64,000 nucleotides of DNA from an uncultured Gammaproteobacteria bacterium (GTDB lineage Bacteria; Pseudomonadota; Gammaproteobacteria; HK1): assembly GCA_958295835.1 (NCBI GenBank), contig OY282378.1, positions 2,125,001-2,189,000 of the forward strand. The letters are read 5' to 3'. A program made the position numbers and the translations under genes. The notes under the pieces are model-generated. The model was not told the DNA's origin and searched no databases. It was given only the letters and a program-made list of their open reading frames with translations. Of the stretch, positions 39,509-44,164 are shown piece by piece. Position 1 is the first letter of the stretch. Every line of letters starts with the position of its first letter.

Positions 39509-40348
39509 ATGGCCGAAGCCGCCAGAGCCACGGCGGGACCCGCTCCCGCCGCGGCCCCCGCTCCGCTCCTCGACGTCGACGGGGTCACCCTGCAGTACAA
39601 GACCAAGGAGCATCTGATCACCGCGACGTACCGGGTCGGATTCCAGGTCTACCCCTCCGATCGCTTCGTCCTGCTCGGCCCCTCCGGATGCGGCAAGTCC
39701 ACCCTGCTCAAGGGGGTCGCGGGATACATGAAGCCGGTGGAGGGGGAGATGCGGCTCAAGGGCCGCGGGATCTCGGAGCCGGGTCCCGATCGGGTCATGG
39801 TCTTCCAGGAGTTCGATCAGCTCCTGCCCTGGAAGACCGTCAGGCAGAACATCACCTTCGCGCTGATCAACGGTGGGCGGTGCGCCACCGGCGCGGAGGC
39901 CGACGACATCGCACGGCAGTACATCCGCAAGGTGAAGCTCGACCGCTTCGAGGACACCTATCCCCACATGCTCTCCGGGGGCATGAAGCAGCGGGTGGCG
40001 ATCGCCCGCGGGATGGCCATGGAGCCCGACGTCCTGCTGATGGACGAGCCCTTCGCAGCGCTCGACGCCCTCACCCGGCGCCAGATGCAGGAAGAGTTGC
40101 TCCAGTTATGGGAGGACACTCACTTCACGGTGCTCTTCGTCACCCATTCCATCGAGGAGGCGTGCATCGTCGGCAGCCGCATCCTCGTGCTCTCGCCGCA
40201 CCCCGGCCAGGTGAAGGCGGAATTGAACGCCCACCACCTCGGCCACGAAGACGTCGGCGGCGAGCCGTTCTCGGCGCTGCAGAAGCGCATCCACGACATG
40301 CTGTTCGCGGATCGCATCCTGGAGGAAGAGGCCGCGCCGCATGCCTGA
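39509..40348 (+). CDS. ABC transporter ATP-binding protein (SsuB/TauB class)
   Basis: A 279-residue ATPase that powers the adjacent permeases. Walker A GPSGCGKST, Q-loop FQEFDQLLPW, signature LSGGMKQRVAIARGMA, Walker B DVLLMDEPFAALD and H-loop FVTHSIEEA are all present. It starts 5 bp after the substrate-binding gene stops. The Pro/Ala-rich first 20 residues are an unusual leader. Confidence 0.94.
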   Translation: MAEAARATAGPAPAAAPAPLLDVDGVTLQYKTKEHLITATYRVGFQVYPSDRFVLLGPSGCGKSTLLKGVAGYMKPVEGEMRLKGRGISEPGPDRVMVFQEFDQLLPWKTVRQNITFALINGGRCATGAEADDIARQYIRKVKLDRFEDTYPHMLSGGMKQRVAIARGMAMEPDVLLMDEPFAALDALTRRQMQEELLQLWEDTHFTVLFVTHSIEEACIVGSRILVLSPHPGQVKAELNAHHLGHEDVGGEPFSALQKRIHDMLFADRILEEEAAPHA

Positions 40349-40480
40349 ACGCGCGCCTCTTCTTCCGGGCCGGGACGCTGCCGAAGCAGGAGTGGCCCCG
40401 CATGCCTGAGCGTGCCCCTCCTCTTCCGGGCCGGGATGCCGCGGCCGAAACGGGAGCGGTCCCTCATGCCTGAACACGCC
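40339..40480. repeat. imperfect ~63-bp tandem duplication across the ATPase-permease junction
   Basis: CATGCCTGAACGCGC...CCGGGCCGGGA recurs with offsets of about 61-64 bp (40340, 40401), and a third ATGCCTGAACACGCC at 40466 is the start of the permease. The array repeats the ATG-containing permease start, leaving two abortive starts upstream of the real one. Confidence 0.75.
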
Positions 40481-41368
40481 CCCGCGGTCCACCTGCGTGA
40501 CGAGTACGAGACCACCGGGCTCGGGGCTGCCGACACCGGCGACGTCGCCCGCCGGCTCTCTCCCTGGGAGCGCTTCTCGAACCTCAACTCGGTGCGCAAG
40601 CTCACCATCCTGGTATCCCTGGTCGTCGTCTGGGAGCTGTACACGCGCTTCGGCGGCATCTCCGAGTACCTGCTCCCGACGTTCTCCGACACCGGCGCGG
40701 CGCTGTTCACCGCGTTGTGGGGCGAGCACCTGCTCTACATGATCTGGAACTCGGTGAAGATCCTGCTCGCCGGCTACGTCATCGGCATCGGAATCGCCAC
40801 CGTGCTCACGACGCTGGCCGTGGCCACCCGCTTCGGCAGCGACCTGCTGAGCACCCTGACCGCGATGCTCAACCCGCTGCCGGCCATCGCGCTCCTCCCG
40901 ATGGCGATGCTGTGGTTCGGCCTCGGGGCCGACGCCATCGTGTTCACCCTGCTCCATTCGGTGGTATGGCCGGTCGCGCTCAACATGCACACGGGGTTCA
41001 TGGGGGTGAGCGAGACCCAGCGCATGGTCGGGCGCAACTACGGGCTGCGCGGCATCCGGTACGTGGTGAAGCTCCTGATCCCCGCCGCGTTCCCGTCCAT
41101 CCTCACCGGCATGAAGATCGGCTGGGCGTACGCGTGGCGCACCCTGATCGCGGCGGAGCTGGTGTTCGGCGGGGCGGTGGTGGATACCGAGGGCACCGGC
41201 GAGGGCGGCCTCGGCTGGTTCATCTTCGCCAACCAGATGGACCTTCAGATCCCGTTCGTGTTCGCCGGCCTGTTCACCGTGATCCTGGTCGGGATCACGG
41301 TCGAGAACGTGGTGTTCCGGAACCTGGAGCTGCGCACCGTCGGCCGCTGGGGGATGCAGACGATATGA
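40466..41368 (+). CDS. ABC transporter permease 1 (SsuC/TauC class)
   Basis: A 300-residue inner-membrane permease from ATG 40466 (MPEHAPAVHL). About six membrane helices are visible, starting LTILVSLVVVWELYTRF. The ATPase-coupling EAA-like loop is RMVGRNYGLRGIRYVVKLLIPAAFPSILTGMKIG. Its last four bases overlap permease 2 (ATGA). The cytoplasmic N-terminus includes a segment (TGDVARRLSPWERFSNLNSVRK) shared with permease 2. Confidence 0.92.
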   Translation: MPEHAPAVHLRDEYETTGLGAADTGDVARRLSPWERFSNLNSVRKLTILVSLVVVWELYTRFGGISEYLLPTFSDTGAALFTALWGEHLLYMIWNSVKILLAGYVIGIGIATVLTTLAVATRFGSDLLSTLTAMLNPLPAIALLPMAMLWFGLGADAIVFTLLHSVVWPVALNMHTGFMGVSETQRMVGRNYGLRGIRYVVKLLIPAAFPSILTGMKIGWAYAWRTLIAAELVFGGAVVDTEGTGEGGLGWFIFANQMDLQIPFVFAGLFTVILVGITVENVVFRNLELRTVGRWGMQTI

Positions 41369-42264
41369 GCGAAGCGGCGGCGAGCGGTGGGAAGGGTCCG
41401 GACGTGTACGTCCGCCCGGAATTCGTGGTCGAGACGCTCGGCGAAGCGGAGATCGGCGACGTCGAGCGCAAGCTGTCCGGGCTCGAGCGCGCCTGGAACG
41501 TCAACGGGGTGCGCAAGGCCACGATCCTCATCGGCCTGGTGGTCGCCTGGCAGGTGTACACGGTGGCCCTGGACGTCGAGCCGCTCATGTTTCCGCGGTT
41601 CTCCACCTCGGCCGAGGCGCTGTGGCTGTCCCTGATCGACAGCGATCTGCTCCGCAAGATCTGGTTCTCGGTGAGTACCCTGCTCATCGGCTACACGGCC
41701 GGACTCGCGCTCTCCGCCGCCCTGGTGCTGTGGGCCAGCGCGCAGCGCATCGGCGCGGACTTCCTCTCCACCTGCACCGCGATGTTCAACCCCCTGCCGG
41801 CCATCGCGCTGCTGCCGCTGGCGATGCTGTGGTTCGGGCTCGGCACCGCGAGCATCGTCTTCGTCACCATCCATTCCGTGCTCTGGGCGGTGGCGCTGAG
41901 CACCCACACCGGCTTCCAGTCGGTGAGCGAGACGTTGCGGATGATCGGGCAGAACTACGGACTGCGGAACATCCGCTACGTGATGAAGATCCTGATCCCC
42001 GCGGCGCTGCCGTCGATCCTGTCGGGGATGAAGATCGGCTGGGCGTTCTCCTGGCGCACCCTGATCGGCGCCGAGCTGGTCTTCGGCGCCTCCTCCGGCA
42101 GCGGCGGCCTCGGCTGGTTCATCTACGAGAACAGCCAGAACCTCGAGACCGCGCACGTCTTCGCGGGCCTGTTCACCGTGATCCTCATCGGGATCACGGT
42201 CGAGAACGTCATCTTCAGGAACGTCGAGCTGCGCACCGTGTACCGCTGGGGGATGCAGCGCTGA
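41365..42264 (+). CDS. ABC transporter permease 2 (SsuC/TauC class)
   Basis: A 299-residue paralogue of permease 1, overlapping it by 4 bp. It shares AMFNPLPAIALLPLAMLWFG, the coupling loop LRMIGQNYGLRNIRYVMKIL and the ending NVELRTVYRWGMQ. Most sulfonate/taurine importers have a single permease that forms a homodimer; here the pair may form a heterodimer. Confidence 0.92.
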   Translation: MSEAAASGGKGPDVYVRPEFVVETLGEAEIGDVERKLSGLERAWNVNGVRKATILIGLVVAWQVYTVALDVEPLMFPRFSTSAEALWLSLIDSDLLRKIWFSVSTLLIGYTAGLALSAALVLWASAQRIGADFLSTCTAMFNPLPAIALLPLAMLWFGLGTASIVFVTIHSVLWAVALSTHTGFQSVSETLRMIGQNYGLRNIRYVMKILIPAALPSILSGMKIGWAFSWRTLIGAELVFGASSGSGGLGWFIYENSQNLETAHVFAGLFTVILIGITVENVIFRNVELRTVYRWGMQR

Positions 42265-42582: not shown

Positions 42583-43386
42583 ATGGCGACCCCTTTCTCG
42601 CAAGTCCCGCTGCCCGCGGAACGTTCGACGACGAAGCCGCGGCGCAAGGGTCTGACCATGATGATGGACTGGGGCCTGCCGCTCGGGCAGCAGGGGGACT
42701 GGCTGGATCTCCTGGCCCCGGTGGTGGATCTGGCGAAGCTCGTGGTCGGCACCGCAAGGCTCTACGAGGAAGACTATCTCCGCCGCAAGCTCGATCTCTA
42801 CGCATCGCACGGAGTACGGCCGTTTCTCGGTGGGCAGTTCCTGGAGTACGTGTTCGCCACCCAGGGCATGGACGGCGTGAAGCCGTTCTGTGACGAGGCG
42901 GTCCGGCTCGGGATCCACGCGATCGAGGTCTCCGACAATGTGGTCGCGCTCGACGACGACGAGCGGCGCGCGATAATCGGGACCGCCGTCGAGAGCGGTC
43001 TCGAGGTCCACGGTGAAGTTGGTTCGAAGAGCGAGGATTCGGGCGCCGAAACGCTGGTCGCGCAGGCGCGCGCGTGCTTCGACGCGGGGGCGGACGTGGT
43101 GCTCGTGGAAGGGGCGGAGCTGCTGCGCGGCGGGATTCCGAACGAGGCTCTCGCCGACGGCCTGCGCGCGGGTCTCGACACCGATCGCGTGATTTTCGAG
43201 CTGAGCGGGCCTTGGGTGCCGGGCACGCACCACACCGACAACTACCGGCTCAAGGTGTTTCTCGTGCGCACGTTCGGCCCCGACGTGAATCTCGCCAACG
43301 TGATGCCGGCCGACGTCTGGGAGACCGAGGCCCTGCGTTGCGGCTTGAGCGTCCCCGGGCCGATGCGGCCGGGGGTGCGCGACTGA
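42583..43386 (+). CDS. comA: phosphosulfolactate synthase-like protein (ComA family)
   Basis: A 267-residue TIM-barrel enzyme. ComA joins phosphoenolpyruvate and sulfite to give phosphosulfolactate, known from coenzyme M synthesis in methanogens and from sulfolactate synthesis in some bacteria. KPRRKGLTMMMDWGLPLG, the strand HAIEVSDNVVAL and GADVVLVEGAELLRGGIP fit the family. It follows an ABC importer of the sulfonate class. In a sulfur oxidiser, sulfite is available as a substrate; the pathway is inferred. Confidence 0.85.
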   Translation: MATPFSQVPLPAERSTTKPRRKGLTMMMDWGLPLGQQGDWLDLLAPVVDLAKLVVGTARLYEEDYLRRKLDLYASHGVRPFLGGQFLEYVFATQGMDGVKPFCDEAVRLGIHAIEVSDNVVALDDDERRAIIGTAVESGLEVHGEVGSKSEDSGAETLVAQARACFDAGADVVLVEGAELLRGGIPNEALADGLRAGLDTDRVIFELSGPWVPGTHHTDNYRLKVFLVRTFGPDVNLANVMPADVWETEALRCGLSVPGPMRPGVRD

Positions 43387-43465
43387 CCCGTCGTTCCCGT
43401 CTCGCGCCCGATGCACCGATGGCGCCTCGAGCGCGCGGCCTGCCATCCACCCCGAGGATTCCACG

Positions 43466-44164
43466 ATGAACGAGACATACCATCTGATCAGCTCCGTGAC
43501 CTGACCCTGGGTACAGCGCGCCGTGATCGTGTTGCGTGCCAAGGACGTCGAGTTCGAAGTGACCTACATCGACCTGCGCGAGAAGCCCGACTGGTTTCTC
43601 GAGATCTCTCCCCACGGCAAGGTGCCGGTACTCTCCGTCGGCGGGCGGCCCTTGTTCGAGTCGAACGCGATCGCGGAATTCCTCGACGAGATGGTTCCCC
43701 CGCGGCTGCATCCCGAAGACCCGTTCAAGCGCGCGCGAAACCGGGCCTGGACCGATTTCGTCCCCGACTTCTCGACAAGCCTCGGCGGCGTGTACTACGC
43801 CGGCGACGACACCGCTCTCGCCAATGGGATCGAGGTCGCGCGCGGCCGGCTTGCCAGGCTCGAAGAGGCGCTCGCCAGGGAGCGGGGCAATGACGGGCCG
43901 TACTTCAACGGTGCGGAGCTCTGTCTCGTGGACGCCGCCTACGCGCCGTTCCTCCGGCGCTACGCCTTCGTCGAGACCCGGCTCGGCTGCGGGTTGCTGG
44001 ACGAATTCCCGCTGGTGCAGGCGTGGTCGGATGCGCTGGCCGCGGACGAGCGGGTCATCGGCTCGGTCGCGGACACCTTCGAGCACGAGTTCGTCGTTGC
44101 CCTGCACCGGCGCGGGGCGATGGCCGCGCCGCGGTTCGGGCCGGTGTCGGACGCGGCTGACTGA
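43466..44164 (+). CDS. glutathione S-transferase-like protein with in-frame TGA at the redox Cys (candidate selenoprotein)
   Basis: Reading from ATG 43466 (GAGGA 8 bp upstream) gives MNETYHLISSVT, then TGA at 43502-43504, then PWVQRAVIVLRAKDVEFEV and on to 44164 without further interruption. GST and glutaredoxin-like proteins have CPxxQR at exactly this place, so TGA replaces the redox cysteine. If read as selenocysteine the protein has 232 residues with Sec at 13. A hairpin can form 11 nt after the TGA: GCGCGC (43516-43521) with GCGTGC (43534-43539), loop of 12 nt. The rest matches GST: HGKVPVLSVGG, FESNAIAEFLDE, and C-terminal helices. If TGA is a true stop, a GTG at 43523 would give a 213-residue version lacking the active site. 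Confidence 0.78.
43505..43545 (+). promoter_or_regulatory. possible bacterial SECIS hairpin within the GST-like gene
   Basis: Immediately after the in-frame TGA the RNA can form a 6-bp stem (one G-U pair) between 43516-43521 and 43534-43539 with the loop CGUGAUCGUGUU. The stem begins 11 nt after the TGA, the distance reported for the minimal upper stem-loop bound by SelB in E. coli fdhF. Bacterial SECIS elements are variable, so this is suggestive only. Confidence 0.4.

Follow-up and report, generated by a model that had tools for sequence, protein, structure and literature searches.

We describe a gene for a glutathione S-transferase (GST)-like protein in which a single in-frame UGA very probably specifies selenocysteine (Sec) at the catalytic position. 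The gene lies in a 64,000 nucleotide stretch of DNA, which we refer to as the window, from an uncultured Gammaproteobacteria bacterium whose genome consists of one contig of 5.73 Mb. We assign a probability of about 0.96 to the reading that the gene specifies a full-length, omega-like GST with a catalytic Sec13, that the UGA would be decoded through a SelB-bound stem-loop, and that the enzyme probably follows a catalytic cycle of the omega/beta type, where we infer Sec insertion, cycle and substrate. The observation behind the first-pass annotation, which had proposed a candidate selenoprotein at this site, was right and its Sec interpretation is strongly supported, with Sec insertion itself being predicted from sequence.

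An in-frame TGA at the catalytic position of a GST gene

The GST frame (43466..44164, + strand) opens with an ATG at 43466, ends with a TGA stop codon at 44162–44164, and encodes 232 aa plus the stop. Its only interruption is the TGA at 43502–43504 (+ strand), which is codon 13 and is followed by 219 sense codons. A putative ribosome-binding site read from the sequence, GAGGA (43454–43458, + strand), is located 7 nt 5′ of the ATG. The read-through product is MNETYHLISSVT-U-PWVQRAVIVLRAKDVEF..., with Sec as residue 13 in the motif SSVTUPWVQR. Pfam matches to GST N- and C-terminal domains (GST_N_2, GST_N_3 and GST_C_2) span the TGA, and the best of them, PF13409 (GST_N_2, E 8.5e-19), begins at residue 12. 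In relatives, the position of the internal TGA is occupied by the Cys of a CPxVQR motif (CPWVQR), and residue 13 is in register with the catalytic Cys32 of human GSTO1. Thus the main features claimed in the first-pass annotation, namely a GST-like frame broken solely by one TGA, its placement at the redox Cys of relatives, an ATG with an upstream GAGGA and a clean downstream frame of about 220 codons, were all borne out. An in-frame GTG at 43523 opens a 213-aa ORF, and a gene finder would probably report this truncated frame.

The gene shows dN/dS values of 0.24, 0.22 and 0.26 against the genus loci L053, L051 and L052, respectively, and of 0.26–0.32 against more distant members. When close relatives were searched for scattered further mutations, which the earlier annotation had said would refute its reading, no decay was seen, and the frame has no further stop. 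With dN/dS of 0.22–0.32 and no additional stop, the gene is under purifying selection and a pseudogene is excluded.

An AlphaFold2 model of the protein has a GST fold (pLDDT 93.8, pTM 0.91). Tau-class GSTs are its best structural matches (VIA Z as high as 25.7) and omega-class GSTs follow closely at about 22.8–22.9, while a sequence profile search is led by Leishmania TDR1 followed by omega-class GSTs. Human GSTO1 (PDB 1eem, 4is0) shares with the protein the GST fold, a catalytic CP[FW] motif where helix 1 begins, with Cys32 in the Sec register, 25–26% identity and a VIA Z of about 22.8, although tau-class structures are at least as similar (Z 25.7), which makes the omega assignment by fold non-exclusive. 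Unlike GSTO1, the protein is bacterial and has Sec in place of Cys.

Sec machinery and a candidate bSECIS element

The first-pass annotation had suggested a search for selA, selB, selC and selD, and all four Sec components were found in the genome. selA (C1:1625512–1626852, E 3e-173) is followed directly by selB (C1:1626888–1628933) and then by the tRNA-Sec gene (C1:1628979–1629070, 73.6 bits), such that these three lie adjacent at C1:1625512–1629070, with selD located apart at 735566–736495. ARAGORN reports the tRNA as tRNA-SeC with anticodon TCA, i.e. tRNA-Sec(UCA). A second gene with an in-frame TGA encodes a SelW-like Rdx protein with a CGVU motif (MKLRIEYCGVUGYEP..., C1:322641–322835, − strand) and is likely a second selenoprotein gene. 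Given selA, selB, tRNA-Sec, selD and the SelW-like gene, the organism very probably makes selenoproteins. Formate dehydrogenase was also examined as a further selenoprotein, and none of its 20 matches has an internal stop. As a separate observation on SelB, the proteins of this genus match TIGR00475 in two pieces (model positions 1–344 and 385–581 in the window genome), whereas a match in a single piece is what most SelB proteins in the wider set give.

The stem-loop that had been proposed to start 11 nt past the TGA was recovered as a conserved 6-bp helix beginning at 43516. The candidate bSECIS core (43516..43539, + strand) consists of a helix, 43516–43521 paired with 43534–43539, and a loop at 43522–43533 that opens with C-G-U. 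It is supported by wobble conservation, pairing, compensatory changes and RNAalifold. Specifically, the wobble bases of codons 17–20 (CAG CGC GCC GTG) are each kept in 54 of 56 Sec sequences; variation is seen at the wobble bases of the flanking codons 16 and 21 in this set, and at those of codons 17–20 in the Cys genes. No other codons of the gene show as little synonymous variability as these QRAV codons, the fourth to seventh after the TGA, and this is so in the Sec set only. Their relative synonymous entropy of 0.10–0.22 makes them the gene's lowest four-codon stretch, as compared with a minimum of 0.32 and a mean of 0.73 for the 98 conserved codons that lie elsewhere in the gene.

RNAalifold independently places the helix at columns 15–20 with 33–38 of the Sec set, where 99.0% of cells are paired. 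Two loci, L106 and L115, carry compensatory changes in which A-U replaces G-C with both sides altered, and one pair of the helix shows a G-U/G-C exchange. Sequences of the Cys set pair at this helix in 82% of cells and break it in 18%, and for them RNAalifold selects a different fold. Covariation is thin, amounting to two double changes, and the case for a bSECIS element draws more strength from the wobble constraint.

The published bSECIS model calls for a G in the first two loop positions, 16–37 nt from the UGA to the loop, an upper stem of 4–16 bp, an apical loop of 3–9 nt and an MFE of ≤ −7.5 kcal/mol (PMC13188914). In the window the loop begins 17 nt past the UGA with C-G-U, in agreement with both the G rule and the 16–37 nt spacing. 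The conserved 6-bp helix leaves a 12-nt loop, as opposed to the 3–9 nt of the model, while folding the window's own sequence to minimum energy closes the loop to 7 nt. The MFE of −7.9 kcal/mol (43516–43539) or −10.1 kcal/mol (43510–43540) lies below the model's cut-off but is no lower than that of shuffled sequences, being ordinary for its composition (z = −0.05), and median folding energies of Sec and Cys genes are much alike (−7.9 and −7.6 kcal/mol). We therefore dropped folding energy as evidence for a SECIS, and the case for a bSECIS rests on conservation and not on stability. The comparison with bSECIS models that the earlier annotation had advised came out in its favor, in that a bSECIS-like stem-loop is conserved in the TGA set only, with an ordinary energy and a conserved loop of 12 nt. 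Rfam at gathering thresholds gave no match anywhere in the window.

Conservation of the TGA and its rival readings

All other genus members in which the GST gene was found (G002, G003 and G004, 81–95% identity) carry the TGA, as does G006, the nearest other genus with a close copy (62% identity). We fetched 80 GST loci from the genome collection and found TGA at codon 13 in 55 and TGC or TGT in 24, with one locus cut off before the codon. Loci L051–L053 and L111 appear to come from the genomes G002, G004, G003 and G006, so 51 of the 55 TGA loci are further ones; these belong to Alpha- and Gammaproteobacteria. The nearest other relatives have TGC or TGT. Alignment of close homologues, which had been recommended as a check, thus yields either TGA or a Cys codon at this position. 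The TGA is retained at the homologous codon across synonymous distances up to about 1.2, and its conservation is far from chance.

We aligned 56 Sec rows (the 55 loci plus the window) with 49 Cys rows and built a maximum-likelihood tree, on which the Sec and Cys states require five changes. With the outer groups all being Cys, the tree suggests one gain of Sec and about four reversions to Cys, although many of its inner branches are weakly supported.

The codon also tracks the Sec machinery. Of the host genomes whose GST locus has 57% identity or more, 50 of the 53 with TGA yielded SelB, versus 3 of the 14 with Cys (Fisher p = 9e-8, a value that is too strong as the test treats related genomes as independent, but the direction is clear). 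Regarding the TGA exceptions, the genome of L085 contains selA, and its selB is truncated where the contig ends, whereas the draft genomes of L095 and L098 yielded neither SelA nor a full SelB, which may be due to draft incompleteness. On the Cys side, L063, which was scored as being without SelB, does have selA. Two Cys groups have members that retain SelB (L077 and L117) beside neighbors in which no full SelB was detected (L082–L108 and L063), and these two cases would fit a replacement of Sec by Cys that precedes loss of the Sec machinery.

An in-frame stop is present in the gene, as would be expected if the TGA were a sequencing error or a recent nonsense mutation in a pseudogene or in an ordinary Cys-GST. 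We regard this as extremely improbable given that the identical TGA was recovered from dozens of species and, within the genus, from independent assemblies, that the gene has no other lesions and a dN/dS of 0.22–0.32, and that wobble conservation beside the TGA is confined to the Sec set. Indeed, this reading is refuted by the 55 other loci that share the TGA, with synonymous distances reaching about 1.2. The existence of the 213-aa ORF raises the alternative that the TGA is a true stop and that the functional protein starts at GTG 43523. Such a product would be without strand β1 and the catalytic residue, even though codons 4–12 ahead of the TGA are conserved at the protein level (YHLISSxT) across relatives and Cys relatives read straight through codon 13. 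A GTG start also provides no reason for the TGA to track SelB, and we consider it very unlikely. Finally, the TGA could be translated as Trp or as some other of the standard amino acids, through either a reassigned code or suppression; no support for this was found. TGA terminates both the GST gene itself and the ComA-like gene upstream, the aligned residue in relatives is Cys and not Trp, and the genome contains a complete Sec system including tRNA-Sec(UCA), all of which leaves reassignment hardly credible.

Proposed catalytic cycle, known relatives and gene neighborhood

In the proposed mechanism, Sec-tRNA(UCA) would be made by SelA using selenophosphate from SelD and delivered by SelB. As SelB would bind the stem-loop at 43516–43539, the UGA at 43502–43504 would be decoded as Sec. 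In omega GSTs the catalytic Cys forms a mixed disulfide with GSH that is resolved by a second GSH (PMC3621891). By analogy, Sec13 may attack an oxidized substrate, which could be a glutathionylated protein or small molecule, dehydroascorbate or a hydroperoxide, leading to an enzyme-Se-S-glutathione intermediate from which a second GSH would restore the selenol and release GSSG. Such a cycle would probably resemble that of omega/beta GSTs and monothiol glutaredoxins. With a U-P-W-V motif that offers no resolving Cys at +3, the most likely cycle is a monothiol one that depends on GSH and passes through a selenenylsulfide.

The protein is thus probably an omega-like GSH-dependent monothiol reductase with a selenol nucleophile, and possibly a peroxidase. 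Peroxidase activity is plausible here since GSTs engineered to contain selenium become good glutathione peroxidases; Se-GSTU Sh14, for example, has high glutathione peroxidase activity (PMC10812501). In both cases selenium would be situated at a GST active site beside bound GSH, but in the engineered enzyme it is artificial and replaces Ser, whereas the present gene is natural and has Sec in place of Cys. A bolder proposal, which we offer tentatively and consider rather doubtful as a whole, is that this natural selenium GST serves chiefly as a GSH-dependent peroxidase or deglutathionylase, and that Sec was gained once and has repeatedly given way to Cys while the Sec machinery is being lost from lineages. 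If true, a peroxidase or deglutathionylase activity otherwise described for engineered GSTs would occur in a natural one.

The first-pass annotation pointed to Sec-containing GSTs in marine metagenome surveys, and the literature agrees: they were first reported from the Sargasso Sea in 2005 (4 sequences, PMC1088965) and then from GOS in 2008 (12 sequences, PMC2398784). Reviews from 2022 and 2026 list them (PMC9312934, PMC13188914), the latter giving PF13409 and stating that the functions of such selenoproteins remain largely uncharacterized. Since these reports concern the same Pfam family, the gene is a new, well-supported member of a little-studied family known since 2005 and not a new kind of protein. 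As likened by family and description, it shares with the published Sec-GSTs (COG0625/PF13409) an N-terminal PF13409 domain and Sec in place of the catalytic Cys; the published entry likewise lists no second redox residue and follows the same Cys/Sec-pair prediction logic. Beyond what was published, a Sec-GST is placed here in a genome that is assembled as one contig and contains every sel gene, a conserved bSECIS candidate is described, and 56 Sec and 49 Cys sequences are joined in one tree. The family is large enough for studying Sec/Cys exchange, and a natural Sec-GST provides a direct test of why selenium is kept.

Directly 5′ of the GST gene is a ComA-like (phosphosulfolactate synthase) gene (42583–43386, + strand; PF02679, E 4e-52) that scores below the NCBIfam arch_ComA cut-off and is itself preceded by a taurine/nitrate-type ABC transporter (39509–42264). 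Within the genus the ComA-like gene lies beside the GST gene only in the window and in L051/L023, and it is absent there in the 95%-identical L053. No neighbor gene common to the wider Sec-GST loci was found. As adjacency is not conserved even within the genus and no common neighbor exists, we dropped an operon role for the ComA-like gene. Downstream of the GST gene, a D-amino-acid transaminase is conserved within the genus only.
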